Positions 4,333-25,765 of a stretch of 25,775 bases of DNA are shown in pieces. Each line of letters opens with the position of its first letter. Position 1 is the first letter of the stretch. The notes under the pieces are model-generated. The model worked only from the letters and a program-made list of their open reading frames with translations. It had not been told where the DNA came from and ran no database searches. The translations under genes and the position numbers were made by a program. Source of the stretch: a virus; IMG/VR virus record IMGVR_UViG_3300023178_000237, positions 1 to 25,775 of that record; one strand, written 5' to 3'.

Positions 4333-5651
4333 TAAGCTTTCACCAACTTCTGGTATTCATATACATTGTCTAAATATTGGTCTCTTACAGATGTAGCAGT
4401 ATCTCCAGAATTTATACTTGCGTCTTCTTGTGCAAGTTCATAACCTAAAAACACTTTCATTTGAGAACCATTTTTATATAACATTTCTCTAGTAACATCA
4501 TAACTAATAGAGCTAGCACTATCTTCTGCACTACCTAATATCCATTTATTACCATCTTCAGGAGAAGCTGTGTCATCAATTATATAACCAGTGCCAGTTG
4601 CAGCATCAGTTCCAGAAGCAGTAGCAAGTGATAGATTAAATCTTGCTGCTACGTATGAGTTAGCAACTATAGAAACATGATGAGCACCACGTCTTAATGT
4701 AAAATCTACTACTAACCTACCGTCTTTACTATCAGCATTTAGGTAAGTAGTACATCTTACAGTTATACATTCAGGATGGTTTTTAAGTATTTGCATAGTT
4801 CTCCAACCTAACCAATCATCTCCTAGTTGGTCAGAACCAGTAGGTTCACCTTTACTAAATGCCCATGTTTTACTTGATTGATAATCACTTACGTCAAATA
4901 TATAAGTATCAAATAATGCTTGTGTAGTTGATGTATCAAAATCTACTTTTATTAATCCATTTTCTATCGAAAGAGCTGTTGGTTTATTTGTAGAGAATAA
5001 ACCATTTCTAACTTCTAATGCAGTTGTAGTACTTGTATCAGCAAAAGTACCAGTACTAACACGACATGAACCTTTGTAATAGTCTGATGGTTCAACATGA
5101 TAAGTAGCATTTGCATTTCTTAAATTGTTATCTGTTTTGAGTCTTAATGTTGTAGTAGCACCAGTTGCAGTACTAGTTAAATCTTTAGAAAGTCTTGTTC
5201 CGTCTGTTGGTTGACCAGTATGGTAATAATTGTAATGATTTCCAGGGGGAGCATGAAATTGATTTGTTGTGCTAGTTATACTGTGGTCATTGTCTAGTAA
5301 AGCACCAGTAAATCTTGATTCAAATTGTATTTCACCACTTCTACCCATATATTCAAAATCAACTGAATAATTAAAACCAGCTCTAGTGTATCTTTGTGTT
5401 TGAACACTGCTGTTCATTATCTTTACATAACCATCGTAACTAGAGTCACCATCATATGTAAATGGAACAGTAATTCCATATGCTGCCATAGAAATTAACT
5501 CATCTCTAATATACTTAACGTGGTCTAGTGTCAACTCAACACCACCAATCTTACCTGATATACTTAGCTCTCTACCGCCATCTGTTGATGAAAAGTTAAG
5601 ATTTCCAGGTGAAGTAAAGCTAAGACGACCTATATGTACTTGATTTGGCAT
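4332..5651 (-). CDS. Distal tail protein (Dit-like) with large C-terminal domain
   Basis: A 439-residue protein following the tape measure, the usual place for the distal tail protein that forms the ring joining tail tube and tip. Residues 1-130 have a Dit-like pattern: an N-terminal strand (VHIGRLSFTSPG), an SISGKIGG strand, a helix (YIRDELISMAAYG), a VPFTYDGDSSYDGYVKI strand pair and then YSVDFEYMGRSGEIQFES. The remaining 300 residues are Thr/Ser/Asp-rich and mostly beta by composition, like the large C-terminal extensions of evolved Dits, which often bind sugars; no specific binding module is recognised. It shares TAATG overlaps with the tape measure upstream and the hub gene downstream, so all three are probably co-translated in fixed ratio. 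The family call rests on position plus the N-terminal pattern. Confidence 0.75.
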   Translation of the reverse strand: MPNQVHIGRLSFTSPGNLNFSSTDGGRELSISGKIGGVELTLDHVKYIRDELISMAAYGITVPFTYDGDSSYDGYVKIMNSSVQTQRYTRAGFNYSVDFEYMGRSGEIQFESRFTGALLDNDHSITSTTNQFHAPPGNHYNYYHTGQPTDGTRLSKDLTSTATGATTTLRLKTDNNLRNANATYHVEPSDYYKGSCRVSTGTFADTSTTTALEVRNGLFSTNKPTALSIENGLIKVDFDTSTTQALFDTYIFDVSDYQSSKTWAFSKGEPTGSDQLGDDWLGWRTMQILKNHPECITVRCTTYLNADSKDGRLVVDFTLRRGAHHVSIVANSYVAARFNLSLATASGTDAATGTGYIIDDTASPEDGNKWILGSAEDSASSISYDVTREMLYKNGSQMKVFLGYELAQEDASINSGDTATSVRDQYLDNVYEYQKLVKA

Positions 5652-8600
5652 TATCTCCTACTTAATCCTGAACCTGCGTTTCCTTCTTTTTCTAATCTTC
5701 TTAAAGCACCTTGTATTTGAACAGCAGCTTTTCTAGCCTGTATTGGGTCAGTTGGAACTCCTGTTACATTTACATTTAAGTTTTCTACACTTATACTACC
5801 ACTTCTTTCAGAACCTTGAGGTGTTACTCTTAATCCACCTTGAGGTAATGAAGTAACCATTTCTGGTCCATATTCACCTACAAGTGCTCTTCTAAATGGA
5901 GCAACCATTCCACCATATTTTCTCTTAAGAACAACACTAAACTTATCAAATTCTCCTTTTTCATGTGCTTTGTCAAGTCTTTCTACAAGTAGTCTACGTA
6001 ACATATCTTTTTGACCTTTTGCTACTGCGGAATGATAGTCCAATGCTGTTTTACCAGCACCTAATAATACTTCGGCTGTTTGGTTATCACTAGTAGTAGT
6101 TCCACCAGACATATTAATTAATCTAGCTACATGACCTATATTTTGTGGGTCATACATTTGAGCATAAGGAACTCTTGCAGAGTCATATCTATAGTCAAGT
6201 CTTTCTCCATCTTGAGTTCTTGCTAGGTCTACACCTTCTCTTTGAACAGAACTACTCATGTCTGCTACAGTAATACCCTGAGCCTCACTTATTTGTTGTA
6301 CTAATGTTTTATAATCTACTCCAAGTTTAGATAAAGGATTATTTTTATCATTCATAGCAGCTTGTAACTGTGCTGAATTTATTACTACTTGACCAGTATT
6401 ATCAATTGATGTCTGTATTCCATAAAGATACTGAAATGCATTTGCTAAGTCTCTTCTACTACCTTTACCTTTACGTAAGTTTTTTAATGCTGTTTGACTT
6501 CTTAAATAATCCTCTGAACTTTCAAATACATCTCTATTTGCAGCAGTAGAAGTATCATCACCAAAACTAGAAAATCCAGGATTTAATATATCTGATTGAA
6601 TAGAAGATAATGCAGTATCTTCAATACCTGTATCTCCAAATAATCCTCCAATTGATTTTCTGGTATTTAGCTCTGAACGAATGTCTGGGTCAGTACTATA
6701 ATCTGCCCTAGTAGTTGAACCTAAAGCATGACTTAAAGATTCTACATGTTGAGCTCTTTCTAATTCAGTTATATATGTTTGAACTGATTTAATAGCTTTA
6801 TCCATTGATGTTTCAGTATTGTTAGCTAAGTTTATTGTTTTTGTTATTACTGTATCTATAGAACCACCAACACCACCATATGCATCAACTAATGCTTGAA
6901 ATGCAGCTGGTGAAGATTCTGCAAAATCTATAAATGCTTGTCTTGCTTCTTCATATTTAAGTTCGGTTGTGTATACATTTTCTGTTGCAGCTTCTAATCC
7001 GTCATAAGCAGTTTGCAATTCAAAACTAGCATTAGCTTGTTCATCAAGTAAAGCAATTTGTTCTTCTCGTAAAGCAATTAATTCAGGGTCTACTTCTCTT
7101 GCTTTTTCTCTTGCATCGTTTAATTCTTCTTCAGCTATTGATACTTCTAATATTGCAAGTTTTTGTTCATCTAGTGATTTATTGGTACCTTTAAGTTCTG
7201 CTAATTTTTCTTCTGCTACTTCAACATCTAATGATGTAGCTATGCCAGCTTCAGCTGCAAGCCTTACTCTTTCTAATTCTTCTTCAGCTTCTACAATACG
7301 TTTTCTTTCAGATGCAGAAAACTGACCTTTTTGTTTACGCTTCATTTCATCAAGAGCTATTTTCTTTTGTAGTAATCCAGCTTCTTCTGTCATAGTAATG
7401 TTGTTTTTTCTGCCTTTTAGTTCTGCTTCTTGTAAAGCTATTTGATTTTTGATTATTCTTTCACTTAATGTTGAATTCTTTCTTCTAGTAGCCATCAAAG
7501 ATTGTTCTGCTTTCTGGACTGCATAATTAGCAGAAGTAATATCTCTCAATCCACCTGTTACAGCAAACATCATATTCAATGCTTCAGCTATGTCTTGAGT
7601 AGCTTGACTAAATCCATATGTTAAAAATTGAGATACTTCTTGTATTTCTTCTGCAACTGCTTGAACTACTGTATCTCCATTAGCTCTGATTCCTTCAGCA
7701 AATTGTTTATAATATTCCCCTCCATCAAAATATCCTCTTTCACTTATAAAATCTTCCATTTCTGAAAATTTATCATCAGCAGCATCGATACCAGATTGAG
7801 CCATATCAATCATAGCTTTTTCTAAAAATCCATGATTATCTTCCACACCATAAGCAGCACCTTCTGCCATTGGCTTACCAATTTCTCTTGCAACTAACAT
7901 AGATGGGTTTACTACATCAAGAAAAGCTTTTGATTCTTCAATTGCATTTTCCATACCAGAAACTAATGCTGCACCTATTTGTGCTTGACGCTCTTGTATA
8001 CCAATTAAGATACCTTCAGAAGTAGCATTACCTAAAGCAAGACCTTGAGCTTGTGCTTTCGCTTGCTCTTCAGTTGTAAGACCCATGTCAGCTGCATCTT
8101 TAGGTCTCATTCTTTGTAGCAATCCTTCAGCAGTTGCTATTGCTGCTGGGTCTCTTAAGAAGTCTTGTAATATTGATTGAGCAGCTAATCCTTGAGATGC
8201 AATGTCTTTAGCTAACATTGGTGCAATTGATGCTAATCTTCTAACATCTTTATCAAATTTAGAAAGTTGGAAACTTTTTATTGTAAGTTCTTCTAACATA
8301 GCTCTGACGCTTTTTCTCATACGTTTTGGTAAATCGCTAAATATTGTAACTGCATTGCTTGCAGATTTAGCAAGTGTTTCATTTAAGGCTTTTTCAAACT
8401 TGGTCATTTCAAATTCCAATAAGCCAAGACCTTCTAGTTGTTTTTTAGCTTCTTCTAGTTGTTGTTCGTGTAATTGATTTTCTGCCATCATTACAGTTTT
8501 AATTAACTCTTCTCTGTTCATTGTGTGGGCATTTAAATCTTGAGATATAGCATTGTTCATTCTTAAGAATTCAAATCTTTCAATTAATGCTTCATTTTGC

Positions 8601-11600
8601 ATTTGCATAAATGTAGACATTTTAGCTTGATTACCAACTTGTCGGTTATCAGCTATTATAGGGTTACCGCCCTTACCTCTCATTTGACTAAATACAGTGT
8701 CGAGGAAAACCATATTTTCTATAAAATCAGTTAAACCTTGAGTTGGATTTGTTCCCAATAAAGCTTCAGGAATAAGACCTAATTCTTTTGTTCTAGTAAT
8801 AACTCCTGAACCCATAACATATTCTTCAACTTCTTGGAATACTCTTATCATTCCATTTCCAGCATCTTCAAACTCTACATTTGTAGCATTGAAAAGCTCT
8901 TGAGTAAAGTTGCTAATTCCACTTTGCTTTAAAAATTCTTCTGCACTCAAACCACCAAAATCAAAGTTACCTTTTTCTAGTGATTTAATGAATCCACCAG
9001 CACTGTCTGTAAATATAGTTCCTATCATGCTGTCAAGCATTCCAAAGTCAACCAATGTATCAAACTGGTCTATATATGCTTCTAAAGACATTCCTTGTTG
9101 CTTAGCTAATTCTTGCATTAATTGAAGTTGACCAGCTCCAAAGTTATTAGCTTGAGTTCCAAAACTTTCATCTAATGCTGAAAATAATTGTATTGCTATA
9201 TCATCAGCACTATCAAAATCAAAATCATTTAGCATTGCTCCAAGTTCTTGTTGTATTACTTTTGTAAAGTTTTTACTTTGTACTGCATCAAATCCCATTG
9301 ATTTAAATATTGCTTCAAATCTTTTTTCAACATTTTGACCTTGTGCTGTTGTATCAAATAATAATGTTTTACCAAGTTCTTGTTCAGCTTCTCTAACTTC
9401 TTCAGACTTCATTGCATAAGCTCTAGTTATATTGTCTATTTCGTCTTCAATAACTTTTATTATTTCTGTATTAGGTTTTGCTTTAGCTAACTCTTTGTCT
9501 AATGCTTTTTGTAATTCTTGTAAACGTATTTCTTGGAAATCTAAGTCTTTTGTTACTTCATTAAGTGCATTAATTTCGTTAGATATTTCTTTTATAGCAG
9601 CAGCAGTTTTCTTTGCTTCTTCCTGTAATTTAAAGAAAAATCCAAATACTGCTGTCATTAATATCATAGAACCAAACATAGTAACAAGACCCATAATGGC
9701 AGCTTTAAGACCATTTATTACAGCAGTTAAACCAGCAGAAGCTAATTTAAAACCTTTAGAAAATGCAATAGATTTTTGTAATGCTGCATTAATACTTATT
9801 AATGTTTTTCTTTTTCTAAGTAAAGCACCAGTAACACCACCAATAACATTTAATAAAGCCTGTAATCCTTTATGTAGTCTTGCAAATCTTTCCATAGACT
9901 TCATTGCATTTTTTCCAGCATTAGCAGCACTGCCACCCATCATTTTTAACTTAACAGCAGCTTTATCGTAGACTTGACTATTTTTAGCAATATCTTTCGC
10001 TTGTGAACCAGTATCTGATAAGAATTTTTTAAATTTTTCTGTTAATGCATCTAAACCTTTATTAAATCCAGCAAAGGCACCCATAGCAAGTTTTTTCAAA
10101 CCTTGACCAAGTGACATTAATGTTGAACTTACAAAAGCACCGATAGTTATAGCTAAGTTTTTAAACATTAGTGCAGTTTTTCTAACACCAGAATCTAGCA
10201 TTTTAAATGCCTTTGAGTTTTTCAAACCAATTGCTAATTTTTTACCAAAATCTAATGCCATTTTGCCCATTTCAAACATAGCAATACCAAACCTTTTAGC
10301 TGTTTCTATTATTAAGAAACCAGGCAAACTGTTTTTAAAAGCTACTCCTAATTTTGAAAGCAATGAAACTAATTGATTAAATCCTGTTTTTAGTTTTGCT
10401 GGTAGGCTCATAATTAATTCACCTAAACCTACAAATGCATCTGCCATTCTTGTAACAAACATTCTTATCATTTCAATAGGCATTGATTCCATAATACTTG
10501 ATTTCAACCTATTAAAAGCACTACGAATAACTGCTATTCCTTCTCTAAGGTTCATTAAAAAGTGAGATTTAAAGAATTTAATAAAAGTAAACAATTCAAT
10601 TTGTGCAGCTTTAAATTCTAAAAATGCATTTTGTATTCTTAATTTAAAATTTTTAAGTCTTAATCCAACGTTTTGCAATAGACTTCGGAATATTTTAAGT
10701 CTAGCTTGCATCAAAAATAATTGAGTGAGGAACTTCTCAAAAGCTTTACTATTAATTAACATCTTCATGAATTTTATAAGTCCAATCTTTGCTTTTTCTA
10801 CACCAGCTGTAAATTTTCCTCTTAATACCTCACCAAATCTAATAATTCCTTCTAATGCTTTATCCATACCATTAATAAATTTAGTACTTATAAATGAAGT
10901 AAACTGTTGTATTTTTTCTAATAAAAATTTACCTATGGCTTCAGCAACTTTAGGTATAGCTTTAAAGAATTTAGTACCTAATTCAATTGCAGACTTTCCT
11001 ATCCATTTTAAAAACTCAGCTAAAGGACCAAACAGTTTTGATAGTGCTTCAAATAAAGTGCTTAATTTAGCAATTAATTTGTCCAATATCTTTGTTAAAA
11101 AGTCTAATGATGATGAAAGAAGTTTCGCTATTTGGTCTCCAAACATAAACCCTCTAAACAATTCTTTAAATGCTTGTGTTGCTTTATTAGTTCTGCCAGT
11201 TTTTTCAAAATCTCTTTCTTGAAGTAATTCTTTTCTTTCAGATTGCAATGTACCTAGCTCTTCTGTTTGGTCTTTATTTAATTTACCTTTTTTTCTTTTT
11301 TCAATCATCAAAGCTTCAATTTTGGCTTTATTAAGTTTTAATAGTTCTTTTGTAGATTGTTGATAAAGTCTGTTTTGAATTTTTGCTGCGTTATTGTCTT
11401 CTACAGTTTCACCAGTTAATTTATTTTGTGCATCTGCATTTTTTATCAATTCATTACGTATTTCATTAAGTCTCGCTTTTTTTTCATCACTTACAACTTT
11501 ATCTACATTACCAAATTCTTCTGTAGCTAAAATTAATCCATCAATATGTGCAATTAATTTATCAACATCCATAACCATGTCGCTATAAACTTCTTTACTT

Positions 11601-14185
11601 ACATCGTCCAATCCATTCAATTCATTTTTAATATGTTTTAAAGCATCAATATTATGCTGATGTTCGGTTCTTGCATTTTTAAGGTCATTGGTAAGTTCTT
11701 TAAAATTACCCTCACTATCCAAGGATTTTAACAAAGTGTTATAATCGCTTAAGAGTTTTTTCTGTTGCCTTCCTAGTTCAAGGTGTCGTTTTAATTCTTC
11801 ATTTGATATTTTTAAATCTTTAGCAATAGCAGATTCGTCCATTCCACTTCGTTTCATTTTATTAATTTGACTAGCCATGTTTAATGAACTATCTGGGTCT
11901 TTTTCAAAACCTTGTACCATAGCACGTAAACCTTCTGCTCCTTGGAATTGTCCTGGTTTTGCAAATCCTTGAGTTTCAGCTTTAGTAATTATATCTTGAA
12001 ATTTATCATCAAACTCTAAATTTTTAGATTCTAACTTTTCAGATATAGTAGCAATTTTCATAAAAGACTTTTCTGTATCTTTTGCATATTGAGTAATATT
12101 TGCATGCTCATCGTCAATTTCACTTGCTATGTCTGCTCCTGAAATATCCCCTTCAATTTTTCCAAGGTCTTCAAAAATTCTTTCAAAACTTGTTAAGGTT
12201 TGGTTATCTATACCAAAACCATCTTCACCAACCAATTTAGTTTCAAAATTTGCACCAGTTCTTCCTATTTCATCATCAGCAAATTTTAGAAATTCATCTT
12301 TTAACACTGCAGTTTCTTCTTTATCAGCTTGTACAATCTTTGATGATTTAGATTTTGTTGCGTTAATTTTATCTTCTTCGTTTTGTAATTCTTTTGCTTG
12401 AAGAATAAGTTTTTCAAGTTCTAATTGGTCTGCTTTATTTTTAGCAATTCTTTCTTGAGTACCTAGTTGTTCAATTAATTCAACATCAATAGCTTGTAAT
12501 ATTCTAAATCTTTCTTTTTCAGCTTCTGTGTCTAATTTCTTTTCATTAAACGTACCGTCATCTTCACGAGCTTTAGCTAATATAGATTTATTTTTTTCTA
12601 CGTCATCAAATATACTTTCACCTAAGATAACTCTTGCTTCATTAAGAATGTTAGACAATCCTTCTACACGAGCTCCACCTCTTGCAGCAGATGCTAAGAA
12701 TGCACCTTCACCACCGCCTCTAGCACCAATACCAGTATTGTCTCTTAAGAAACCACTAGTTTCTGCTTTTCTTTGTCTAAATGATTTACCAACATTACCA
12801 CCTAAACCAGCAAGACCTACTTGTACTCTTCCGTCTACACCTGTACCTGGTATTCCTTGTTTTTGGAATTCATCTAAAGTTTCACCAGCTGTTCTAGCAG
12901 CTGTTCTCATTGCAAAAAGAGCTAATGTTATTGCAGAAATTGTTTTTGCCATTGCTGTAAGTCCTGCAATAGTAGTTCCAGCACCTATTGTTTGTAGTGA
13001 TTGTATAAAATTATTAACAGCAGGTAATGCATCATTACCAACATCAATAGCTATAGCTTGTATTTGATTTCTAAGTAAAGTTACTTGAGATGTTACAGTT
13101 TCGTATCTTTTTTCTGCCTCTGTTTGTAAAGCGTTATTTAGTACAAATTCTTCGTTAGCAGAATTTAAAGCATCTTTAACATCGTCAGCTGCTAAAGCCA
13201 TAGAACGTAAAGCTCTTAATGTTCTTTGTTGAGCTAGACCAAGTTCTTCTAATAATGAAACAGTGTCTCCACCAGCAATACCTACTTTACCTAATCCTTC
13301 TAAGAATGCTACGAAAGCATCAGCTGGTGATAATTCAGCAAGTCTTGAAAACTCATCTGTTGTCATTTGAGACACTTGTGCAAATATTGAAAGTTCTCTA
13401 CCACCTTGTAAAACGGCTGTCGACATTGTATCTAAAGCTCTAGCTACTGCTGTAGAACCTGCTTGTGTTTGCTGACCAACCTGTTTTAAGGCAGCAGCTA
13501 ATGCTAATGAATCAGCGGCAGCATTAGAAGTAGGGGATTCTAATAACTCCATTGCAGCTGCAATCTTTTGTGCAGCATTTACTATTTCTGATTCTGTAGC
13601 AGCAAATTCGTTACCTAAACGAACTACAACAGAAGCTAAATTTTCAATTTGTCTTTCAGGGGTTCTAGTTATTGCGGATAATCTTGATAATGCAAAAGCA
13701 CCGTCTTCAGCACTTAAGTTTGTTGCTACGGTTAGCTTAGCTATTGTTTCAGTAAATTTTGTAATATTGACAGCTTCTACACCTAACTGTCCACCAATCT
13801 CTGCTATTTTGTTTAAGTCGTTTGCAGCAACTGGAGCTTGTGTAGATATGTCTACAATACTTTTAGCAAGTACTTTAAAGTTTCTTTCAGTTTGTCTAGC
13901 TGCTTGACCACTAAAATCAAGAGTTTTCTTAACGCCAGCAAATGAATCTTGAAATCCTACTGCACCTCTAATAGCTACATTAAATGCAGCAAATGCAGCA
14001 CCACCAATAGCAGCAAATGCAGGAATAAAAGAAGACATTTTATTTGCAGCTAATGCAGTTCTTTTTTGAAGTTGTGTTAATTGACCAGCAGTTTGTTTAG
14101 CTGCTTTAGATAGAGAAGCGTTATCAGCATGAAATTGAAGAGCTACACTTACTGTTGATGCTCTTGTGCTGCCTTTAATAGCCAT
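5651..14185 (-). CDS. Tape measure protein (very long)
   Basis: A 2844-residue protein, the largest in the window. It sets tail length, fills the tube and is expelled during DNA entry. Residues about 1-400 match the TP901/PhageMin_Tail type: a hydrophobic helix near 50-80, then GFQDSFAGVKKTLDFSG, DISTQAPVAANDLNKIAEIGGQLG and TNLSAEDGAFALSRLSAITR. Residues about 500-1000 are charged coiled coil. Residues about 1005-1395 are an unusual Phe/Lys/Leu-rich amphipathic region. A hydrophobic stretch at about 1485-1517 (GLVTMFGSMILMTAVFGFFF) could cross a membrane. Residues about 2220-2400 are strong coiled coil. Near residue 2768 is the GEYGPE motif followed by a Gly-rich turn, seen at the end of many tape measures. 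An AGGGA ribosome site upstream overlaps the stop of the chaperone frame. By the rule of about 0.15 nm per residue, it implies a tail near 430 nm. Confidence 0.96.
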   Translation of the reverse strand: MAIKGSTRASTVSVALQFHADNASLSKAAKQTAGQLTQLQKRTALAANKMSSFIPAFAAIGGAAFAAFNVAIRGAVGFQDSFAGVKKTLDFSGQAARQTERNFKVLAKSIVDISTQAPVAANDLNKIAEIGGQLGVEAVNITKFTETIAKLTVATNLSAEDGAFALSRLSAITRTPERQIENLASVVVRLGNEFAATESEIVNAAQKIAAAMELLESPTSNAAADSLALAAALKQVGQQTQAGSTAVARALDTMSTAVLQGGRELSIFAQVSQMTTDEFSRLAELSPADAFVAFLEGLGKVGIAGGDTVSLLEELGLAQQRTLRALRSMALAADDVKDALNSANEEFVLNNALQTEAEKRYETVTSQVTLLRNQIQAIAIDVGNDALPAVNNFIQSLQTIGAGTTIAGLTAMAKTISAITLALFAMRTAARTAGETLDEFQKQGIPGTGVDGRVQVGLAGLGGNVGKSFRQRKAETSGFLRDNTGIGARGGGEGAFLASAARGGARVEGLSNILNEARVILGESIFDDVEKNKSILAKAREDDGTFNEKKLDTEAEKERFRILQAIDVELIEQLGTQERIAKNKADQLELEKLILQAKELQNEEDKINATKSKSSKIVQADKEETAVLKDEFLKFADDEIGRTGANFETKLVGEDGFGIDNQTLTSFERIFEDLGKIEGDISGADIASEIDDEHANITQYAKDTEKSFMKIATISEKLESKNLEFDDKFQDIITKAETQGFAKPGQFQGAEGLRAMVQGFEKDPDSSLNMASQINKMKRSGMDESAIAKDLKISNEELKRHLELGRQQKKLLSDYNTLLKSLDSEGNFKELTNDLKNARTEHQHNIDALKHIKNELNGLDDVSKEVYSDMVMDVDKLIAHIDGLILATEEFGNVDKVVSDEKKARLNEIRNELIKNADAQNKLTGETVEDNNAAKIQNRLYQQSTKELLKLNKAKIEALMIEKRKKGKLNKDQTEELGTLQSERKELLQERDFEKTGRTNKATQAFKELFRGFMFGDQIAKLLSSSLDFLTKILDKLIAKLSTLFEALSKLFGPLAEFLKWIGKSAIELGTKFFKAIPKVAEAIGKFLLEKIQQFTSFISTKFINGMDKALEGIIRFGEVLRGKFTAGVEKAKIGLIKFMKMLINSKAFEKFLTQLFLMQARLKIFRSLLQNVGLRLKNFKLRIQNAFLEFKAAQIELFTFIKFFKSHFLMNLREGIAVIRSAFNRLKSSIMESMPIEMIRMFVTRMADAFVGLGELIMSLPAKLKTGFNQLVSLLSKLGVAFKNSLPGFLIIETAKRFGIAMFEMGKMALDFGKKLAIGLKNSKAFKMLDSGVRKTALMFKNLAITIGAFVSSTLMSLGQGLKKLAMGAFAGFNKGLDALTEKFKKFLSDTGSQAKDIAKNSQVYDKAAVKLKMMGGSAANAGKNAMKSMERFARLHKGLQALLNVIGGVTGALLRKRKTLISINAALQKSIAFSKGFKLASAGLTAVINGLKAAIMGLVTMFGSMILMTAVFGFFFKLQEEAKKTAAAIKEISNEINALNEVTKDLDFQEIRLQELQKALDKELAKAKPNTEIIKVIEDEIDNITRAYAMKSEEVREAEQELGKTLLFDTTAQGQNVEKRFEAIFKSMGFDAVQSKNFTKVIQQELGAMLNDFDFDSADDIAIQLFSALDESFGTQANNFGAGQLQLMQELAKQQGMSLEAYIDQFDTLVDFGMLDSMIGTIFTDSAGGFIKSLEKGNFDFGGLSAEEFLKQSGISNFTQELFNATNVEFEDAGNGMIRVFQEVEEYVMGSGVITRTKELGLIPEALLGTNPTQGLTDFIENMVFLDTVFSQMRGKGGNPIIADNRQVGNQAKMSTFMQMQNEALIERFEFLRMNNAISQDLNAHTMNREELIKTVMMAENQLHEQQLEEAKKQLEGLGLLEFEMTKFEKALNETLAKSASNAVTIFSDLPKRMRKSVRAMLEELTIKSFQLSKFDKDVRRLASIAPMLAKDIASQGLAAQSILQDFLRDPAAIATAEGLLQRMRPKDAADMGLTTEEQAKAQAQGLALGNATSEGILIGIQERQAQIGAALVSGMENAIEESKAFLDVVNPSMLVAREIGKPMAEGAAYGVEDNHGFLEKAMIDMAQSGIDAADDKFSEMEDFISERGYFDGGEYYKQFAEGIRANGDTVVQAVAEEIQEVSQFLTYGFSQATQDIAEALNMMFAVTGGLRDITSANYAVQKAEQSLMATRRKNSTLSERIIKNQIALQEAELKGRKNNITMTEEAGLLQKKIALDEMKRKQKGQFSASERKRIVEAEEELERVRLAAEAGIATSLDVEVAEEKLAELKGTNKSLDEQKLAILEVSIAEEELNDAREKAREVDPELIALREEQIALLDEQANASFELQTAYDGLEAATENVYTTELKYEEARQAFIDFAESSPAAFQALVDAYGGVGGSIDTVITKTINLANNTETSMDKAIKSVQTYITELERAQHVESLSHALGSTTRADYSTDPDIRSELNTRKSIGGLFGDTGIEDTALSSIQSDILNPGFSSFGDDTSTAANRDVFESSEDYLRSQTALKNLRKGKGSRRDLANAFQYLYGIQTSIDNTGQVVINSAQLQAAMNDKNNPLSKLGVDYKTLVQQISEAQGITVADMSSSVQREGVDLARTQDGERLDYRYDSARVPYAQMYDPQNIGHVARLINMSGGTTTSDNQTAEVLLGAGKTALDYHSAVAKGQKDMLRRLLVERLDKAHEKGEFDKFSVVLKRKYGGMVAPFRRALVGEYGPEMVTSLPQGGLRVTPQGSERSGSISVENLNVNVTGVPTDPIQARKAAVQIQGALRRLEKEGNAGSGLSRR

Positions 14186-14924: not shown

Positions 14925-15572
14925 TTAGTTAATGTCGAATACGTCAGAGTCATTTGTATTATCAATGATTCTGAATAATTCTGTGTACTGTGCAACAGAT
15001 TTTGGTTTTAACACCTTAAACTCTACACCGATAACAACCTTTTGAGGTGCTTTTTGATGAGCCATTGAGAAAGCTCCAACGTTTACTGCACGTGGAATCT
15101 CAACATGTCTATCAGCACCAGCAGGTCCGTCAACAATTAACAATAATGATTTCTCATCATAGTCATCTGTTGATGGAGGAATGATAGCATTGTAACCAGA
15201 TTGGTATCCATTGCTTCCATCTCCTGTTGTTATAGAACCACCACCAAGAGCTACTAATAAGTTAGCTTGTGAAGCTTGTGCAAGTTCACCAGTTAATCTA
15301 ACTTCTTGAGCAGTCTTGAAAGTAGCAATTGGGTCAATTTCTTCAGCGACCATAATGTCTTCAAATGTTTTATCCATTTCAAGAGTCCAGCCGTCTTCAG
15401 AATATCCTACGTCAACCCAGTCAGATGCAGGGCTTGACCATGCACTTGAACCGTCATCTGTAGGAAATGCAATGTAATCGCCAGAAGCATTACCTTCGTT
15501 AGCGATTGCAGCTACATATAGTACCCCAGTACCAACAATAACTTCGGATATTGTACCATTTGTACTTGGCAT
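14925..15572 (-). CDS. Major tail tube protein
   Basis: A 215-residue protein that should form the hexameric rings of the tail tube. It begins MPSTNGTISEVIVGTGVLYVA and carries a WVDVGYSEDGWTLEMDKTFEDIMVAEEIDP motif, which is typical of siphovirus tube proteins of the gpV/actinophage type (the usual 'reference value then E-x-D-P' turn). A mixed beta/helical body follows (EVRLTGELAQASQANLLVALGGG), then a late strand (APQKVVIGVEFKVLKPKSV). Length is normal for the family. It has a strong TAGGAG ribosome site 6-7 bases before the ATG, as expected for a highly made virion protein. Position just before the chaperone pair and tape measure supports the call. Confidence 0.9.
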   Translation of the reverse strand: MPSTNGTISEVIVGTGVLYVAAIANEGNASGDYIAFPTDDGSSAWSSPASDWVDVGYSEDGWTLEMDKTFEDIMVAEEIDPIATFKTAQEVRLTGELAQASQANLLVALGGGSITTGDGSNGYQSGYNAIIPPSTDDYDEKSLLLIVDGPAGADRHVEIPRAVNVGAFSMAHQKAPQKVVIGVEFKVLKPKSVAQYTELFRIIDNTNDSDVFDIN

Positions 15573-15960: not shown

Positions 15961-16398
15961 CTAAACCATTGCAGTCTCTTCAATTCTTGACGGTGTTTGC
16001 ACTATTTGAAAGCCGTATATTTTAGCTCTCAAGGGCGTATCATCGTCACTTGTTATATACCCATTACTATAGTTAAAAGCTGACTGAATTATGGTATTTG
16101 CAACAGAATATGCTGTTCCATAATCAGGTGTAGTGGTATCTGCTGTACCACCCCATTTACCTGCATATACGTCAATAGGCATAGTTGCTGATTGCATATG
16201 TGCTTCACTAAATGGATTTACTACTTGTCCACCTGCTCTAAATAATGTAACAAATGGTAACTCTGCATCTCTAGGTAACCTAGTAGCAATTCTACTTCCT
16301 ACAACTGCATTTATGTTTGTATCCTGCAACATCCATTTTCTCAATATAATTTCTGCGTCTGGTGGTGCAAGTTGATTTCCGTCTAAAGTATTTGGCAT
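15961..16398 (-). CDS. Tail terminator / tail completion protein
   Basis: A 145-residue protein that probably caps the finished tail tube and docks it to the head. The pattern fits the siphovirus terminator family: an N-terminal helix (PPDAEIILRKWMLQD), a NAVVGSRIATRLP turn, a LPFVTLFRAGGQVVNP strand pair, an IDVYAGKWGG strand and an AYSVANTIIQSAFN helix. This alternation of 'RI...LP...P.vtl...gG' with an 'iDvya' strand is common to actinophage and lambda-U-like terminators. Its place immediately before the tube protein is the standard position. A ribosome site (AGGATA) lies about 6 bases before the ATG. Confidence 0.75.
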   Translation of the reverse strand: MPNTLDGNQLAPPDAEIILRKWMLQDTNINAVVGSRIATRLPRDAELPFVTLFRAGGQVVNPFSEAHMQSATMPIDVYAGKWGGTADTTTPDYGTAYSVANTIIQSAFNYSNGYITSDDDTPLRAKIYGFQIVQTPSRIEETAMV

Positions 16399-16415: not shown

Positions 16416-19400
16416 TTAGTTTAAGAGTATGTTTTTTAACATTTGTAAACCACTTACTGAATTACCTGCTACATCAGGAGTAGTCTTACTTAATACAGCT
16501 TGATAGTAAGCAATTTTAGATTTATCAAGAGCTTTTGGTGGACCAAAATTTTTGCTTTTAGCATTAAAACCATATTGTTTTTTATTTAGTGGATGACTAG
16601 GGTCCATTGTTGTTTGAAAGTAAGCACTAACAGCTGCTGAGTCTTCTAATGACAATAATAAATGAATAACGTTTTCGTTATGACCTGAAAATCTAACATT
16701 TTTAATTAATCTATTAAGAGTGTTTTGTAAATTTTGACCAGAAGAAGTTTCTGCTCTATCACCGTAGTCTGTTTTTTTAACGTCTCTATAGTATCTTAAC
16801 TTTTTACTTTCATTTACCCATGTAAATCCACCTTTGTTAATTTGATTTCTTATTGTCTTGTAATCTTTTATTATTTGTCTAGATTCAGGAGAACTCAAAT
16901 CGATTCTATGTTCTTTTAAAATATGTTCTCCATCTAAATTAAAAAAGAATTTTTGTCTAGTACTGTGACCACCAGATTTAGTCTGTGAAGTAGCATCACC
17001 GTAAACATTTGTTTTACTTGCATTTACACTTCTTCCAAAAACTCCTTGTGCTGATTTTTCTCTAGCGTTTTTCATAAACTGCTTGTAATCTTCTGGACCA
17101 TCAAATTCAACACCTTCTGGGTCTAGTTTGATTTTTTTATTATCATAGTGACCCCTCCACTTACCAGAACCACTTCTGTCATAGTATCGACCAGTTTTTT
17201 TAACTCCTATACCTGCTTCTTTTGCTAATCTTAAAATATCATCATTATTTAATAATTCTTGACCATAACCTGCAAACTGAACAAACTCACCAAAATCAGA
17301 AATACCTAAACTTTTTATGTGTGCCATAGAGTCTGCAACATCTTCTAAAAGTAGCGCTCTTTTTTCTTTTATAGCCTGTAGTACTTCATTGTTTATTGGT
17401 TGAGCTTTACCACCAACAATTGCTTCAAAAAATCCATCATCTACTAAAGTTTGTTCAAAATTAGTAAATTGTCTAATTCTCATAATTTCACGTCCAGCCA
17501 TACGACCAGTAAAAGGAATAGTTCTACCCTTAAAATCAACTTTTGGACGTGCAGCAGAGGATTGTATTACTCCTTCTAAGTGTTTGTTTACTTTATTTGT
17601 AATAACCTTTAGAGCTTTTTCACCAGTCCAGTCATCTGTTCCACCAAAATGTTCTTGAAATATACCTAAATTTTCAGGATTTTGAAATTGGTTTTCTAAT
17701 TTTAAAACTTCTTTTTCGTAAAATTTATCAGCAGTTTGCTTAGCAGATGCCATAGCTCTATCTACTACAATTTTTTCATCTTGAGATAATTGAGCATAGC
17801 TTCTTCCACCAGCTTCAACTTGTCCATTTTTACTTAATTTTATATTTTTTAATTTTGGATAACTTTTTAAATGAGGTTCTAAATTTTCTTTTAATTTAGT
17901 CATTTGTAATGCTTGTGATTTTAGTTCGATAGCTTTATAAGCTTCTGCTATGGCTTCACCAGAAGCTTTTTGTAGCTCCGCTAATATTGCACCTTCTACG
18001 TCTGAAGCGTCAAAAATACCACCATATAAGTTTTGATTTTGTAGTTTTTGTGTATCTAAAAATGGTCTGTTGCCAAATCTATTTCGACTCATACCCATAG
18101 CTTCTAGATGGTCGTCTCCCATAACTATTCCAGCTCTACCTCCTCTACCTACTCTTCCTAATCTTCTATAAAATTCATTGTTAGCAAGTTCAAAATCTCC
18201 TGTTAAATTTATTCTTTGCATATGTTCTGTAATAACATTTTTAATTTTATCTAAGCCATTTTCAAAACCAGCAGGGTATTGACCTGGATTTAAATCTACT
18301 AAAGATGTAGTACCATCTGCTAATGTTCTAACAACTGAAGTAGAGCCACCATAAAATGTTTTACCTTTATCATATTTGTCAAAGTATTGATTTATTCTTC
18401 CATCAGATATTTTACTTCTTTTAACTGATTCAAATCTTCCAGTTTGATTGTTAAAAGCAACATCTCTAGCCCTTTGTGCGTTCTCTTGTGCAAAATCTCT
18501 AACTCTTCTGTCAACAATTAATTTAAATTCAGATTTTTGTTGTCTTTCTTTATTTCTACCTCTTGAATCAAACTTGTCTCTATTTTTTTTCATGTGATGT
18601 AAAACACCACCCTTAGCTTGTGAATAACTTATATCACCATCTACATCTAACATTTGAGCAGCTCTTTCACCTGCTCTAGTCAAAAATAAACTTCTAGGGT
18701 AAACAAATCTATCGCTCCTGTTTCTTAACGACCCTTGTTTGTCAGTTGCAGGACCACCAAACTCTACTTGTTGAGCATCTTTAAGACCTTCACCAAACGT
18801 TACACTAAATCCTAAAAAACCTCTGTTGTCATTTGCATTACCACCAATTAAAGGTGCATCTCTAGTTATAGAAGACTGTATTAATCTTTGACTGTAAATT
18901 GCATTGTCAAATTCATATTGAAGAACTGGGTTGTCTATTACTGTTTGTCCTACTTCTCTGTGTTTTTCATAATCTACAAATCCGTCACCTGGTCCAGCCA
19001 TAATTCCAAAATTTTCAACATATTCATTTAAATCAGAAACATTCATATCTCTTGGTCTGAGCCTTAATTGCCCATTTTCGTTTATATAAGTCATAACACC
19101 AGGTGCACCCCTTTTTGTTTTTTTCACATATTCAAAATCCTTTTTTTTATCAGGTTTAGATGTGTGTCTTCTAATATTGTTAAATTTTTTCATGTCTCCT
19201 TTATCCAATGCTTCACGAGCTTTTTCGTTTTGAGCATCACGACCTTTTTTTCTTCTAGTTTCCTGTTTTTCCATTCTCTCAACATAGTGAGGAGCAAAAG
19301 TAGCTAAATCACCAGGGGTATACATACCACCTGTTGATAAATCTATATCAGGACTTTCATAATACATATTTCCATTACTATCAAAAGATATTCCGTTCAT

Positions 19401-20294
19401 ACTAGAGTTTCCAGGTAAAACATCTCTACCAAAATCATATAAAGTATTTTGACTATTAATTCCATAAGTACCACCGCTAAGACCTTTAAGCATATTTGCT
19501 CTGTCTTTACCAAAAGCATTTAAAACATTTTCTATCTGGTCTTCAGACATATTATCAACTTGACTATCAGCAAATCTTTGTAGCGCCATTACTTCTGGTG
19601 CGGTAAAACCAGCTTCAACTAAATTTTGAGTTGTTTGACTGTTTCTTTTAGATGCTCTAATTCCAGCTTCATTTAGTAATCCATCTTGTTTTTCTTGGTC
19701 TTTTCCCACACCAAAACCACCTAGTTTATAATTAGGAGCATTTTTTATAGCTTGAGCATGTGTCTTCAATTGCCATTGTGGACCAATAGCGTTAGCTTTC
19801 ATTAAATCTGCTGTAACATCTTTTTGAACTTTTTGTACATTATCAATAGAGAAATCGACACTTACAAAATATTTCATAGCATTAGTAAGTATTTGTCTTG
19901 ACATATGACCAGCTTGAACACGCATAAACCTACCAAAAGGACCACCGCCTTGAGGTACTATTTTACCCTGTACTCTACCTAAAGCTCTACCACCAACAAT
20001 CCAAGCAGCACGACCCATAATAGATAATGCAAAGTTTTGTGTTGAAGCAAACGATTGAAAAGTGTTATAACTTTGAAGTATTGAATACATAGAATTAGAC
20101 AATCTATCAAGTGTTTGAGTTCTTGCACCAATAGATTTAGACCAGTTGTAAGTTCTTAAACCTTTAAATAGTTGAGCTTCTGTTCTTCTTGATATAAAAA
20201 CATCAGGTCTGTTTTCACCTACATATGTAACTTTAGAAGTTACAACTGATTCTCCTAGACCACTAGATACTCTTTGTTTTGAAGTAATAGCCAT
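16416..20294 (-). CDS. Giant neck-region protein, 1292 residues, unknown function
   Basis: It starts at ATG 20294, overlapping the stop of the head closure gene (TAATG), and ends 17 bases before the tail terminator. In HK97-like phages this slot holds a neck/tail-completion protein of about 120-150 residues (gp10 type); here it is nearly ten times longer. It is basic and rich in Lys, Arg, Asn, Gln and Gly. Residues 1-200 are mostly helical, and a Lys/Arg-rich linker lies near 350-400. Residues about 510-545 contain VEFGG and YPRSLFLTRAGERAAQML, faintly like the 'VEfG ... rpff.rA' end of gp10-type proteins. The rest has helical and Gly/Asn-rich stretches with no recognised catalytic motif; I looked for HExxH, Walker and nuclease motifs and saw none. 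It could be a neck protein with huge insertions or an ejected internal protein. It is probably a virion protein. Confidence 0.85.
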   Translation of the reverse strand: MAITSKQRVSSGLGESVVTSKVTYVGENRPDVFISRRTEAQLFKGLRTYNWSKSIGARTQTLDRLSNSMYSILQSYNTFQSFASTQNFALSIMGRAAWIVGGRALGRVQGKIVPQGGGPFGRFMRVQAGHMSRQILTNAMKYFVSVDFSIDNVQKVQKDVTADLMKANAIGPQWQLKTHAQAIKNAPNYKLGGFGVGKDQEKQDGLLNEAGIRASKRNSQTTQNLVEAGFTAPEVMALQRFADSQVDNMSEDQIENVLNAFGKDRANMLKGLSGGTYGINSQNTLYDFGRDVLPGNSSMNGISFDSNGNMYYESPDIDLSTGGMYTPGDLATFAPHYVERMEKQETRRKKGRDAQNEKAREALDKGDMKKFNNIRRHTSKPDKKKDFEYVKKTKRGAPGVMTYINENGQLRLRPRDMNVSDLNEYVENFGIMAGPGDGFVDYEKHREVGQTVIDNPVLQYEFDNAIYSQRLIQSSITRDAPLIGGNANDNRGFLGFSVTFGEGLKDAQQVEFGGPATDKQGSLRNRSDRFVYPRSLFLTRAGERAAQMLDVDGDISYSQAKGGVLHHMKKNRDKFDSRGRNKERQQKSEFKLIVDRRVRDFAQENAQRARDVAFNNQTGRFESVKRSKISDGRINQYFDKYDKGKTFYGGSTSVVRTLADGTTSLVDLNPGQYPAGFENGLDKIKNVITEHMQRINLTGDFELANNEFYRRLGRVGRGGRAGIVMGDDHLEAMGMSRNRFGNRPFLDTQKLQNQNLYGGIFDASDVEGAILAELQKASGEAIAEAYKAIELKSQALQMTKLKENLEPHLKSYPKLKNIKLSKNGQVEAGGRSYAQLSQDEKIVVDRAMASAKQTADKFYEKEVLKLENQFQNPENLGIFQEHFGGTDDWTGEKALKVITNKVNKHLEGVIQSSAARPKVDFKGRTIPFTGRMAGREIMRIRQFTNFEQTLVDDGFFEAIVGGKAQPINNEVLQAIKEKRALLLEDVADSMAHIKSLGISDFGEFVQFAGYGQELLNNDDILRLAKEAGIGVKKTGRYYDRSGSGKWRGHYDNKKIKLDPEGVEFDGPEDYKQFMKNAREKSAQGVFGRSVNASKTNVYGDATSQTKSGGHSTRQKFFFNLDGEHILKEHRIDLSSPESRQIIKDYKTIRNQINKGGFTWVNESKKLRYYRDVKKTDYGDRAETSSGQNLQNTLNRLIKNVRFSGHNENVIHLLLSLEDSAAVSAYFQTTMDPSHPLNKKQYGFNAKSKNFGPPKALDKSKIAYYQAVLSKTTPDVAGNSVSGLQMLKNILLN

Positions 20295-20641
20295 TATTCA
20301 TAAAAAAGAAGATTAACTCTTCTTAAATAATTTATGCCATCACGGTTTTTAGCTGTTTGTATTGAGTCTATTTCATAGTATTTACCTGTACTAGGTTCAT
20401 AAATTCTATCCGATGATTTTATATCAACACTACCATCTAAATATAAAATCCAAGACTGCACTACTGTATTTCTGCCATCTCTATTTTCTGATTCACCAAT
20501 AATTTGCAATCTACATGCATTATTAGTACTTAAATCAGACCAAGAAGTTGACTGTAAACCTCTGCTATCAACAGAAGAATCATCAACTCTTTGTACGTTT
20601 ACTTTATTAATAAATAATCTTTGTGGTATTCTTCCTGCCAT
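20294..20641 (-). CDS. Head closure / head-tail joining protein
   Basis: A 115-residue protein with the beta-barrel pattern of the SPP1 gp16/HK97 head-tail joining family (Phage_H_T_join type). It shows RLFINKVNVQRVDDSSVDSRG, a WSDLSTNNACRLQIIGESE strand, VVQSWILYLDG, a SSDRIYEPSTGKYYEIDSI strand pair and a closing strand (NYLRRVNLLFYE). This stopper protein binds under the connector and closes the filled head before tail joining. Length is typical. There is no clear ribosome site in the 30-base AT-rich gap upstream, so translation may depend on the preceding gene. It is coupled to the next gene by a one-base overlap. Confidence 0.82.
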   Translation of the reverse strand: MAGRIPQRLFINKVNVQRVDDSSVDSRGLQSTSWSDLSTNNACRLQIIGESENRDGRNTVVQSWILYLDGSVDIKSSDRIYEPSTGKYYEIDSIQTAKNRDGINYLRRVNLLFYE

Positions 20642-20671: not shown

Positions 20672-21301
20672 TTAGGTATTGTGATTTGTCTTTAGTCTTT
20701 TTTTTCTTCGTTCTTTAGATTGGCAAGACTTACAAATATGGGCATAACCATCTGGAGAAGTTCGCTTAGCGTTAAAAGAACCAACAGATAGATTTTTTTG
20801 ACAAAACCAACAATCTTTAGTTTTAATACTTTTATCTTGATTCTTAATTTTATCCAAGCAAACATTGCAATATCTATTATAACCGTCTTTATATTTTTGA
20901 CTTTTAGTATATTCTAATAAGTCTTTTGTTACTTCACACTTGTAACATTTCTTAGTAGTTTTATCAACAGACATAAAATTTGCATTAGCTTTATCAACTT
21001 TATCTTTAAGTTCTGGATAATTTAGTAACCATGTTTTAAATTTATCAGGACCAATAGGTAAATCTTTAAACAATTCTCTACTTGAAGGTGAATAACCTTG
21101 TATTTCTATTCTTTTAATTATTTCATCAGTTAATTCTGGTGTTGGTGTTTTATAGGTTTTAAATCCACACTCTTCTTTTATTTGTCTAACTCTTTCAATA
21201 GAAACATTCCATTCTAAAGACCATTCAGTTAGTGATTTGTTTGGTTTAGATTGAAATAATAACTTAGCTTCTTCTAAGCTAGGTGCTTTTTTATTAGGCA
21301 T
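20672..21301 (-). CDS. HTH and double zinc-ribbon protein inside the neck operon
   Basis: A 209-residue protein, probably DNA-binding. Residues about 23-50 (SLTEWSLEWNVSIERVRQIK) look like a sigma-region-4 type helix-turn-helix. Residues 119-193 hold two tandem zinc-binding units with identical spacing: C119-x2-C122-x22-C145-x2-C148 and C164-x2-C167-x22-C190-x2-C193. Each also has an Asp-Gly before the second Cys pair. The C-terminus is strongly basic (KERRKKRLKTNHN). Units like these are often found next to HNH nuclease domains, but no HNH histidine/asparagine pattern is visible here. It overlaps the connector gene by one base (TAATG) and so sits in the structural operon. It may be a moron-like regulator, a nuclease relative that lost its catalytic domain, or a packaging-linked DNA binder. 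Confidence 0.8.
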   Translation of the reverse strand: MPNKKAPSLEEAKLLFQSKPNKSLTEWSLEWNVSIERVRQIKEECGFKTYKTPTPELTDEIIKRIEIQGYSPSSRELFKDLPIGPDKFKTWLLNYPELKDKVDKANANFMSVDKTTKKCYKCEVTKDLLEYTKSQKYKDGYNRYCNVCLDKIKNQDKSIKTKDCWFCQKNLSVGSFNAKRTSPDGYAHICKSCQSKERRKKRLKTNHNT

Positions 21302-21957
21302 TATATAAAATAACTTTTCCTATACGGTGACAATAACTGCATATCTGATGATGATAATGGAGCTATTGAAAGTGCATCTAATCCAACAGTGTATACTTGG
21401 CTATATTCTCCAATAGATTCTGAACCTGATAGGTTCATATTACCTGCTTGACTAGCACCTTGAGCAGATATTTCACCAGGGTCTTGTTGTGATGAGACTG
21501 CAACAGTAGCTTCTAATAATCTAGCTGCTGCTCTTGATGAAACCATCTTTATTTGTATAGGTAAGTCAGTTGACACACCACCACCGAATGCTGTATAACC
21601 AGATACATAGGTTACTACAATATTTTGTTCCCTCGCATAAGACCACCTTTTACCTAGTCGTCTTAATCTCCCACTATCATAAAATACAAAATCTGCTTGA
21701 TTACCTTCTGTTAATGTATATTCATCTTCTACTACAGATGTAATAGAATGTACAGGAAGGTGTCTTAAAAATATTTCTTTTGTTTGGTCACCAGTAAAAG
21801 TTTCTGTTTTAGTACCATACTCTAGGTCATAACCTACATATTGATTTATTGCTGCGTCAACAAAAGGAATTATATTATTAGTTAAATGAGTCTCTAAGTC
21901 TGAGTCAAAGTCTATTTGAGTATAAGACTCTACATCAGATGCCGTTGAGAAAGCCAT
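21301..21957 (-). CDS. Head-tail connector, gp6-like
   Basis: A 218-residue adaptor protein that would form a ring below the portal. The N-terminal helical pattern (TASDVESYTQIDFDSDLETHLTNNIIPFVDAAINQYVGYDL) is characteristic of HK97 gp6/SPP1 gp15-like connectors. It is followed by strands TKETFTGDQTKEIFLRHLPVHSITSV and DYSGRL-like turns (FYDSGRLRRLGKRW), then VVTYVSGYTAFGGG, a 'vtY..G' motif common in this family, and a later helix (LPIQIKMVSSRAAARLLEA). A strong AGGAGGT ribosome site precedes the ATG. It is about twice as long as HK97 gp6, mostly through the Ser/Gly-rich C-terminal third. Confidence 0.85.
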   Translation of the reverse strand: MAFSTASDVESYTQIDFDSDLETHLTNNIIPFVDAAINQYVGYDLEYGTKTETFTGDQTKEIFLRHLPVHSITSVVEDEYTLTEGNQADFVFYDSGRLRRLGKRWSYAREQNIVVTYVSGYTAFGGGVSTDLPIQIKMVSSRAAARLLEATVAVSSQQDPGEISAQGASQAGNMNLSGSESIGEYSQVYTVGLDALSIAPLSSSDMQLLSPYRKSYFI

Positions 21958-24877: not shown

Positions 24878-25765
24878 TTATTTTGTGATGTCTTTAATGA
24901 CAGTTAATTTGGAGACTGGCATGGTAACTTTTCTATCAGTCTTTTTATGTTTACCATCTTCCATTATTGCCCATACTTGCATAGTAGCTTCATCGCCACT
25001 AACACTAGTTACTACACCATGAACAGTTGAAGGTGGGTCGGGGTCCTTATTGATTGACCAACTGACAGATTGTCCAACTCTAACACTTGCTGCCTTTTCC
25101 CCACTTTTTTTAGATGAGAGTGGGTGGGAAGAAGGTAGTAAATCTTGGTCGTAAGGTTTTCTTTTAAATCTACCAGTTCTCAAAGCATGAAGGAACCCGT
25201 TAACTCTGGCTACTCCCCACTGGTCAGCTCCAGTTACATTACCACGAACTGATGATGGGTTTGTACGATAAGCACCAACACCTCTGTTAAATACAGATAC
25301 TAATGTTCTTAAATTAGTTCTGTACTTAGGATTTTTCGCATTGTGTTCTTTTACTTTATTAGTAAGAGTTTTGCGAATTCTATCTGAAACAGCTTTAGCA
25401 GCATTTTCATCAGCCATTTTACTGGCTAACTCATAAGCAGCTTTACGCCTACTTCTAACTACTTTCATTTGGTCAGATATAACTTTTTTCATAGCAGGAA
25501 CACCCATGTTTAAAACACCACCCCACTTAATAGCAGCAACAACACCAGCTAATCTGTTATTGTTTTGATGTCTTCCCATAAATCGCTCTCTTCTACGTAC
25601 CCAGCTAAGAACTGATTCACTTCTATCACCAGATTGATATTTAGTCCATCTAGCAAAAGCATCATTACCTGTAAACGAAGTAGGAGGGTTACCACCATTT
25701 CCACCTCGTCTCCAAATTTCTGGGTAATTCTCTTTTAGGTTTTTTGCATAACCATAAGGAAACAT
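24878..25765 (-). CDS. Conserved phage head-module protein with C-terminal SH3/Tudor-like domain
   Basis: A 295-residue protein. Residues 10-100 (YPEIWRRGGNGG ... RRRERFMGRH ... AGVVAAIKWGGVLNMG) and 140-200 (YRTNLRTLVSVFNRGVGAYRTNPSSVR ... ADQWGVARVNGFL) match a pattern I recall from proteins encoded next to prohead proteases in many marine and cyanobacterial phages (DUF5824-like; the name is from memory). Residues about 229-295 (VGQSVSWSINKD ... VHGVVTSVSGDEATMQVWAI) look like a small beta-barrel of the SH3/Tudor type. The protein is basic overall. The frame stays open to the window edge and no ribosome site is visible in the 10 bases before ATG 25765, so the true start may lie outside. The function is not established; a head-assembly role is inferred from its place. 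Confidence 0.75.
   Translation of the reverse strand: MFPYGYAKNLKENYPEIWRRGGNGGNPPTSFTGNDAFARWTKYQSGDRSESVLSWVRRRERFMGRHQNNNRLAGVVAAIKWGGVLNMGVPAMKKVISDQMKVVRSRRKAAYELASKMADENAAKAVSDRIRKTLTNKVKEHNAKNPKYRTNLRTLVSVFNRGVGAYRTNPSSVRGNVTGADQWGVARVNGFLHALRTGRFKRKPYDQDLLPSSHPLSSKKSGEKAASVRVGQSVSWSINKDPDPPSTVHGVVTSVSGDEATMQVWAIMEDGKHKKTDRKVTMPVSKLTVIKDITK

Follow-up and report, generated by a model that had tools for sequence, protein, structure and literature searches.

Tail completion proteins (TCPs) are present in most siphoviruses, and their location and job were unsettled until 2024. The fold typical of the Ne1/TCP superfamily consists of two long side-by-side helices and a small beta-sheet. The sizes reported for these proteins in published surveys lie within the ranges of 56–231 amino acids (aa) (PMC4362835) and 112–255 aa (PMC11099176). 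In phage 80alpha, the TCP gp51 is a monomer located inside the neck, in the tail lumen, between the end of the DNA and the tape measure protein; one of its loops caps the DNA end, a hairpin takes part in a sheet to which the tape-measure N-termini also contribute, the two helices form a bundle with the tape measure, and the authors expect gp51 to be ejected with the DNA (PMC11661146). In SPP1, gp16.1 helps load the terminator gp17, and particles without gp16.1 release their DNA outside the cell (PMC11099176). The gpZ protein of lambda carries an extra domain at the apex (PMC11661146), and p143 of T5, a putative TCP that is a proposed monomer, is located on the tail tip and not in the neck (PMC11784142). 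A search limited to open-licence papers found no giant TCP.

The giant gene and its relatives in the same slot

The DNA analyzed here (the window) consists of 25,775 nucleotides of the IMG/VR virus record IMGVR_UViG_3300023178_000237, with a GC content of about 34%. The giant gene is intact, starts with ATG and runs from 16416 to 20294 on the minus strand (1292 codons), which is exactly the single 3.9-kb, 1292-residue gene of the initial annotation, where no strand was given. Its start codon and the stop codon of the head closure gene have one base in common (TAATG), and this 1-nt overlap recurs in 70 of the 99 relatives scored, so that the translational coupling claimed from the window sequence is real. 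In the order of transcription, the upstream part of the module comprises an S78 protease, an HK97-fold capsid gene, a small gene, a gp6-type head-tail adaptor (21301–21957, minus strand; phrog_442, E=2.3e-19), a Zn-ribbon gene and the head closure/head-tail adaptor gene (20294–20641, minus strand; phrog_615, E=5e-6). Downstream of the giant gene lie a tail terminator of the gp17/DUF3168 type (15961–16398, minus strand; PF11367, E=7.6e-6, and phrog_123), a small gene, the major tail protein (14925–15572, minus strand; phrog_476, E=6e-5, and phrog_2175), two small genes and a tape measure protein of 2844 aa (5651–14185, minus strand).

The giant gene occupies the position of the gp10-family gene in HK97, flanked by head closure (Hc1) and tail terminator (Tc1), as is the case in the Ne1/TCP superfamily, and shares with the HK97 gp10/Ne1 family (PF04883, PHROG 5) the order Ad1-Hc1-Ne1-Tc1. 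The protein is basic (pI 9.5, net charge of about +38), as are the members of that family, and contains no enzymatic domain detectable in Pfam, PHROGs, NCBIfam or PDB. On all these points, the gp10-type slot, the basic character and the lack of an enzymatic motif, the initial annotation holds. The search of phage records with the window protein returned nothing, so no relatives were found among cultured phages, and a scan of genome contigs for prophages or a host yielded no relatives of the capsid protein. The window belongs to an uncultured virus of bacteria; that it is marine is a guess based on where some of the related contigs came from.

Several hundred IMG/VR loci were fetched by searching with the capsid protein and the major tail protein. 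In these syntenic relatives, a single ORF per locus is found between head closure and terminator, for a total of 102 distinct complete proteins. The sizes of the slot proteins fall into discrete classes, namely, 310–376 aa (35 proteins), 608–683 aa (26), 1047–1317 aa (31) and 1678–1791 aa (10). In addition, a canonical gp10 of 175 aa (PF04883, E=1e-7; phrog_5, E=1.7e-11) fills the slot in a lineage with a capsid protein that shares 52% identity with that of the window, and together with the 310–376-aa relatives this lineage bridges the size gap between the published TCPs and the giants. The giant gene is not an orphan, nor is it an isolated case. The ratio of nonsynonymous to synonymous divergence (omega) of the slot gene is 0.18–0.66, below 1 in all pairs, so selection on this gene is purifying on average and positive selection is unsupported. 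The existence of 102 distinct complete homologues or slot-equivalents under purifying selection indicates that the giant gene is not a product of chance. No second gp10 candidate is recognized in these loci in the interval from the capsid to the tape measure.

Links to the tail completion protein family

The window protein has no direct profile matches in Pfam, PHROG, NCBIfam or PDB, including PF04883, PHROG 5 and TIGR01725, and AlphaFold2 is confident only in two stretches of the predicted core. A few single-member matches, phrog_25389 at residues 678–714 (E=0.012), a sigma factor in one relative (L124), and ribosomal S8, L9 and coronavirus spike in PDB, make no positional or biological sense and are attributed to chance.

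The small relatives are more readable. In the 310–376-aa class, the gp10 signature appears as APIxTGNLRxSI...TIGSS...ADxAPYWWKTxYGG...QPPRP, and PHROG 5 (‘tail completion or Neck1’) matches the slot gene in 4 of the 18 small-class records (E=5.9e-5 to 1.2e-3). Among 31 small members, phrog_5 is the most frequent PHROG (7/31) and PF04883 the most frequent Pfam family (4/31); in the NCBIfam scan of the small members, the gp10 model is absent and the most frequent models are unrelated.

The homology of the window protein to gp10 is transitive, via a chain of profile comparisons made with hhalign. The classes compared are the small class, the 600-aa class (mid), the 1000–1240-aa class (B), the window clade and the longest class. 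The weakest link of the chain is that between the canonical gp10 and the small class (E=2.8e-4 at APxxTGxLRxSI, probability 41%). From there, the small class aligns with the mid class (2.1e-12), with B (2.8e-13) and with the window clade (3.4e-7), and the window clade aligns with the mid class (7.5e-9) and with the longest class (3.6e-36), the last three matches involving the N-terminal extension described below. When only the core is compared, the window clade and the longest class align with the mid class at 2.8e-10 and with B at 6.5e-8, and B with the small class at 7.8e-9. Controls with five neighboring gene families never produce an E-value better than 0.14. The alignment of all classes is too divergent for pattern search. 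Taken as a chain of profiles, these comparisons support homology well: the window protein is very probably a distant relative, by descent, of the Ne1/TCP family, as distinct from a member of the families defined by the PF04883, PHROG 5 and TIGR01725 models. Small size is descriptive, not definitional, for the superfamily, and the window protein, with its 1292 aa, departs from this description.

Architecture of the slot protein

The gp10-like core of the giant protein is split into two parts (about residues 151–190 and 451–552), and the enlargement occurs at three places: an N-terminal extension shared by the relatives, a 265-residue insertion in a core loop and a hypervariable C-terminal tail of 740 residues. 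The N-terminal extension (residues 1–160; 19815–20294, minus strand) is helical and strongly basic (pI 10.8), is common to all size classes, being already present in the 310–376-aa relatives, and has the consensus GGR..GK.QG...P.GGGP..R..RV..G..SR. The first half of the core (about residues 160–190; 19725–19817, minus strand) is the N-terminal core helix, which terminates at the ‘AP’ of the AP..TG motif known from gp10, with an invariant P187; compared alone in hhalign, this half falls short of significance (best E=0.04), although in the right register. The core-loop insertion follows (residues 191–455; 18930–19724, minus strand), with low pLDDT and a length of 250–361 aa in the window clade, 536–632 aa in the longest class and only about 10–20 aa in the small class. 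The second half of the core (residues 456–552; 18639–18929, minus strand), to which the above core matches to the 600-aa and 1000–1240-aa classes belong, contains the xLxxSI strand, (V/I)E(Y/F)GGPATD and the YxPSLF helix. The gp10-like stretch that the initial annotation faintly perceived at residues 510–545 is therefore real but covers the core only in part; the remaining core residues lie at about 151–190 and 451–510. The C-terminal extension (residues 553–1292; 16419–18638, minus strand) is hypervariable and basic and has no invariant column; hhalign detects no homology of the C-terminal extensions between the four larger groups or to the tape measure, and no convincing internal repeats that would point to growth by tandem repetition were found.

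The prediction of structure agrees with this dissection. AlphaFold2 was run on residues 1–640 with 29 homologues and is confident only at about 151–190 (pLDDT 60–80) and 451–550 (pLDDT 55–82), which coincide with the two core halves predicted from motifs; for a small relative of 322 aa, the confident region is 140–300, i.e. the core. The pLDDT of the core is 55–87, and overall pLDDT is low, 47 and 54 for the two models. Foldseek returns no matches at E=0.001 or better for either model. The Foldseek output for the 1–640 model is noise because most of that model is unreliable; for the model of the small relative compared with BFVD, HK97 gp10 is named in 4 of the 14 best matches, all with E>=0.09.

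Computation shows that the enlargement was stepwise, by one loop insertion and C-terminal extension. The proposal of the initial annotation that a neck protein has grown by massive insertions is upheld by the size ladder in the slot, the profile–profile links and the split core found independently by AlphaFold2. Compared with the HK97 gp10 family, the window protein retains the core motifs AP...(TG)...SI, (V/I)E(Y/F)G and P.xF, which are intact in the 310–376-aa relatives, but differs in its length, the splitting of the core by the 265-aa insertion, the extensions at both termini and the lack of a direct HMM match.

Location and role of the giant protein

Two observations bear on the location of the giant protein in the particle. 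The first is the avoidance of cysteine. The slot family contains 9 cysteines in 83,562 residues (0.11 per 1000), and there are none in the tape measures (166,629 residues), including that of the window, or in the major tail proteins (10,230 residues), compared with 4–13 per 1000 in the adaptor, head closure, terminator, protease and the ORFs upstream of the protease. Because unrelated extensions are all cysteine-poor, this avoidance reflects selection and not descent. The paucity of cysteine groups the slot protein with the tail, and as the major tail protein is likewise poor, the feature marks ‘tail’, not ‘lumen’.

The second observation is the correlation with tape measure length. Across 61 phages, the length of the slot protein correlates with that of the tape measure (Spearman 0.88). 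With phylogenetic independent contrasts, the correlation is r=0.41 (p=0.001; leave-one-out r 0.33–0.48) when one phage (L218/L013), in which the tape-measure ORF is interrupted (1000 plus at least 1329 aa), is left out after inspection, and r=0.15 (p=0.25, not significant) when it is kept. No length correlation survives the contrasts for five other neck and tail genes. These data are suggestive of covariation between the slot and tape-measure lengths.

The best explanation, and one that we consider probable, is that the slot product is a giant TCP, distantly homologous to HK97 gp10, SPP1 gp16.1, lambda gpZ and 80alpha gp51, which would reside in the tail lumen between the DNA end and the tape measure and probably be ejected. 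For the individual parts of this reading, by analogy with 80alpha, the location in the lumen appears fairly likely, and ejection could go either way. Like 80alpha gp51, the core would occupy the lumen of the neck and the proximal tail, probably as a single copy or a few, where it would cap the DNA end and contact the tape-measure N-termini. Since the inserted loop comes after the N-terminal helix of the core, it would be placed at the DNA-facing apex, and the N- and C-terminal extensions would continue the two core helices down the lumen, beside the tape measure. On infection, the tape measure would exit first and the giant protein would follow, either ahead of the DNA or together with it, timing ejection and routing the DNA across the envelope, a role known for SPP1 gp16.1, and the hypervariable parts may be adapted to the tape measure or the host envelope of each phage. 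A giant plug that holds the tape measure and the DNA, times their release and travels along with them fits both the covariation with the tape measure and the avoidance of cysteine. A copy number of 12, which the initial annotation regarded as the sign of a neck ring, would not be expected given that the only resolved TCP is a monomer.

The known systems resemble the window to different extents. With 80alpha gp51 (PDB 9mu2), the giant protein presumably shares the core and the role of a plug between the DNA end and the tape-measure N-termini, but gp51 has 115 aa, no extension and no detectable sequence similarity to the window protein. SPP1 gp16.1 (141 aa) shares the gene position and, by analogy at the family level, possibly the function of loading the terminator and routing the DNA. 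The extra domain of lambda gpZ (192 aa) is at the end where the insertion of the window protein would lie, but it is a small beta domain compared with the 265–632 residues in the window and its relatives. T5 p143 (255 aa) is, by a low-confidence prediction, an enlarged TCP in the same gene slot, but is proposed to be a monomer at the tail tip.

The alternative posed in the initial annotation, growth by insertion versus a new internal or ejected protein settled in the neck operon, is partly a false contrast because the 80alpha TCP is itself in the lumen and is expected to leave with the DNA: a newcomer is disfavored on homology, but the internal or ejected function may hold. Identification as a giant TCP accounts for the largest unannotated neck-module gene in >100 uncultured viral contigs. 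Such a protein is 5–8 times larger than any TCP in the published surveys and should therefore show in cryo-EM maps and proteomes that missed small TCPs; the size ladder and the tape-measure covariation provide a direct test of the TCP and the tape measure as one lumen complex. More tentatively, and somewhat against the balance of probability, the TCP could, in a large group of uncultured phages, have turned into a giant lumen protein that is ejected, is attached to the DNA end and has a length (about 1790 aa at most) that scales with the tape measure. In that case, the internal content of the tail would have gained a second component that coevolves with the first and brings a large clade-specific payload into the cell along with the leading DNA end.

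The main rival to the lumen reading is an enlarged TCP outside the particle, as a collar, whiskers or on the tail-tip side in the manner of T5 p143, with variable parts that touch the host surface or envelope, which would explain the fast divergence. The slot is indeed far more divergent than its neighbors, with 27–36% identity between slot proteins of phages whose capsid proteins are 90–95% identical. In several close pairs, the synonymous divergence of the slot is far above that of the flanks, which points to allele replacement by recombination; in the near-identical pair L108/L113, dS is 0.02 for the capsid, 0.01 for head closure, 0.70 for the slot and 0.24 for the adjoining terminator, and such exchange is usual for host-facing proteins. 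Nevertheless, an outside location is unlikely: the collar or whiskers of the initial annotation find no positive evidence, with no fibrous, beta-rich, collagen-like, Ig or carbohydrate-binding domains in the Pfam, PHROGs and NCBIfam scans, the core groups with TCPs, of which the only resolved bona fide member is in the lumen, and the length follows that of the tape measure, a lumen protein. Less probable still is an assembly factor for terminator loading or head-tail joining, transient or absent in the virion, with the extra mass scaffolding or chaperoning long tails; the part played by SPP1 gp16.1 in loading gp17 (PMC11099176) and the longer slot proteins that accompany longer tape measures agree with it, but both gp16.1 and T5 p143 are virion components, and near-zero cysteine resembles virion tail proteins and not a cytoplasmic chaperone. 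Finally, replacement of gp10 by an unrelated protein, with the resemblance being convergent or due to chance, would account for the lack of a direct family match and the weak canonical–small link but is highly improbable, given the absence of another gp10 candidate between capsid and tape measure, the continuous chain across size classes (E 1e-7 to 1e-36, with controls at 0.14 or worse), the matches of gp10 models exactly at the small-class slot gene, and the independent choice by AlphaFold2 of the two predicted core halves.

Tail genes and tail length

The tape measure gene (window 5651–14185, minus strand) encodes a protein of 2844 aa, and because tail length is usually converted at 0.15 nm per tape-measure residue, the tail of this phage is probably longer than 400 nm. 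The tape measures of 129 relatives, 166,629 residues altogether, do not contain a single cysteine. At the related loci L013, L218 and L317 (G006), the tape-measure ORF is interrupted after 1000 aa and followed by another ORF that is at least 1329 aa long; the interruption represents either a real split gene or a sequencing error.

The tail terminator ORF (window 15961–16398) is 145 aa long, compared with 160 aa in the related contig L002, which is otherwise 99.96% identical to the window and aligns to it with one gap; the length difference is possibly due to an indel at the gene end, in the window or in the L002 contig.

The Zn-ribbon gene and its neighborhood

The 209-aa product of the gene at window 20672–21301 (minus strand) contains two Zn ribbons and may also have a helix-turn-helix. 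Its PHROG matches are Lar-like and endonuclease VII; no nuclease core is seen in this protein. More than 60 relatives retain the gene in place, between the adaptor and head closure genes, and it has diverged more than its flanks, as has the head closure gene. In the phages with 608–683 aa proteins in the giant-gene slot, an additional, functionally unassigned ORF of ~394 aa (L071:11102–12286 and relatives) lies between the Zn-ribbon and head closure genes.

The ORF upstream of the protease

The ORF upstream of the protease gene (window 24878–25765, minus strand), which reaches the contig end, shows a sub-threshold match to DUF5824 (PF19141; E=5e-5), and in the close relatives L002 and L004, its counterpart belongs to a 907-aa ORF.
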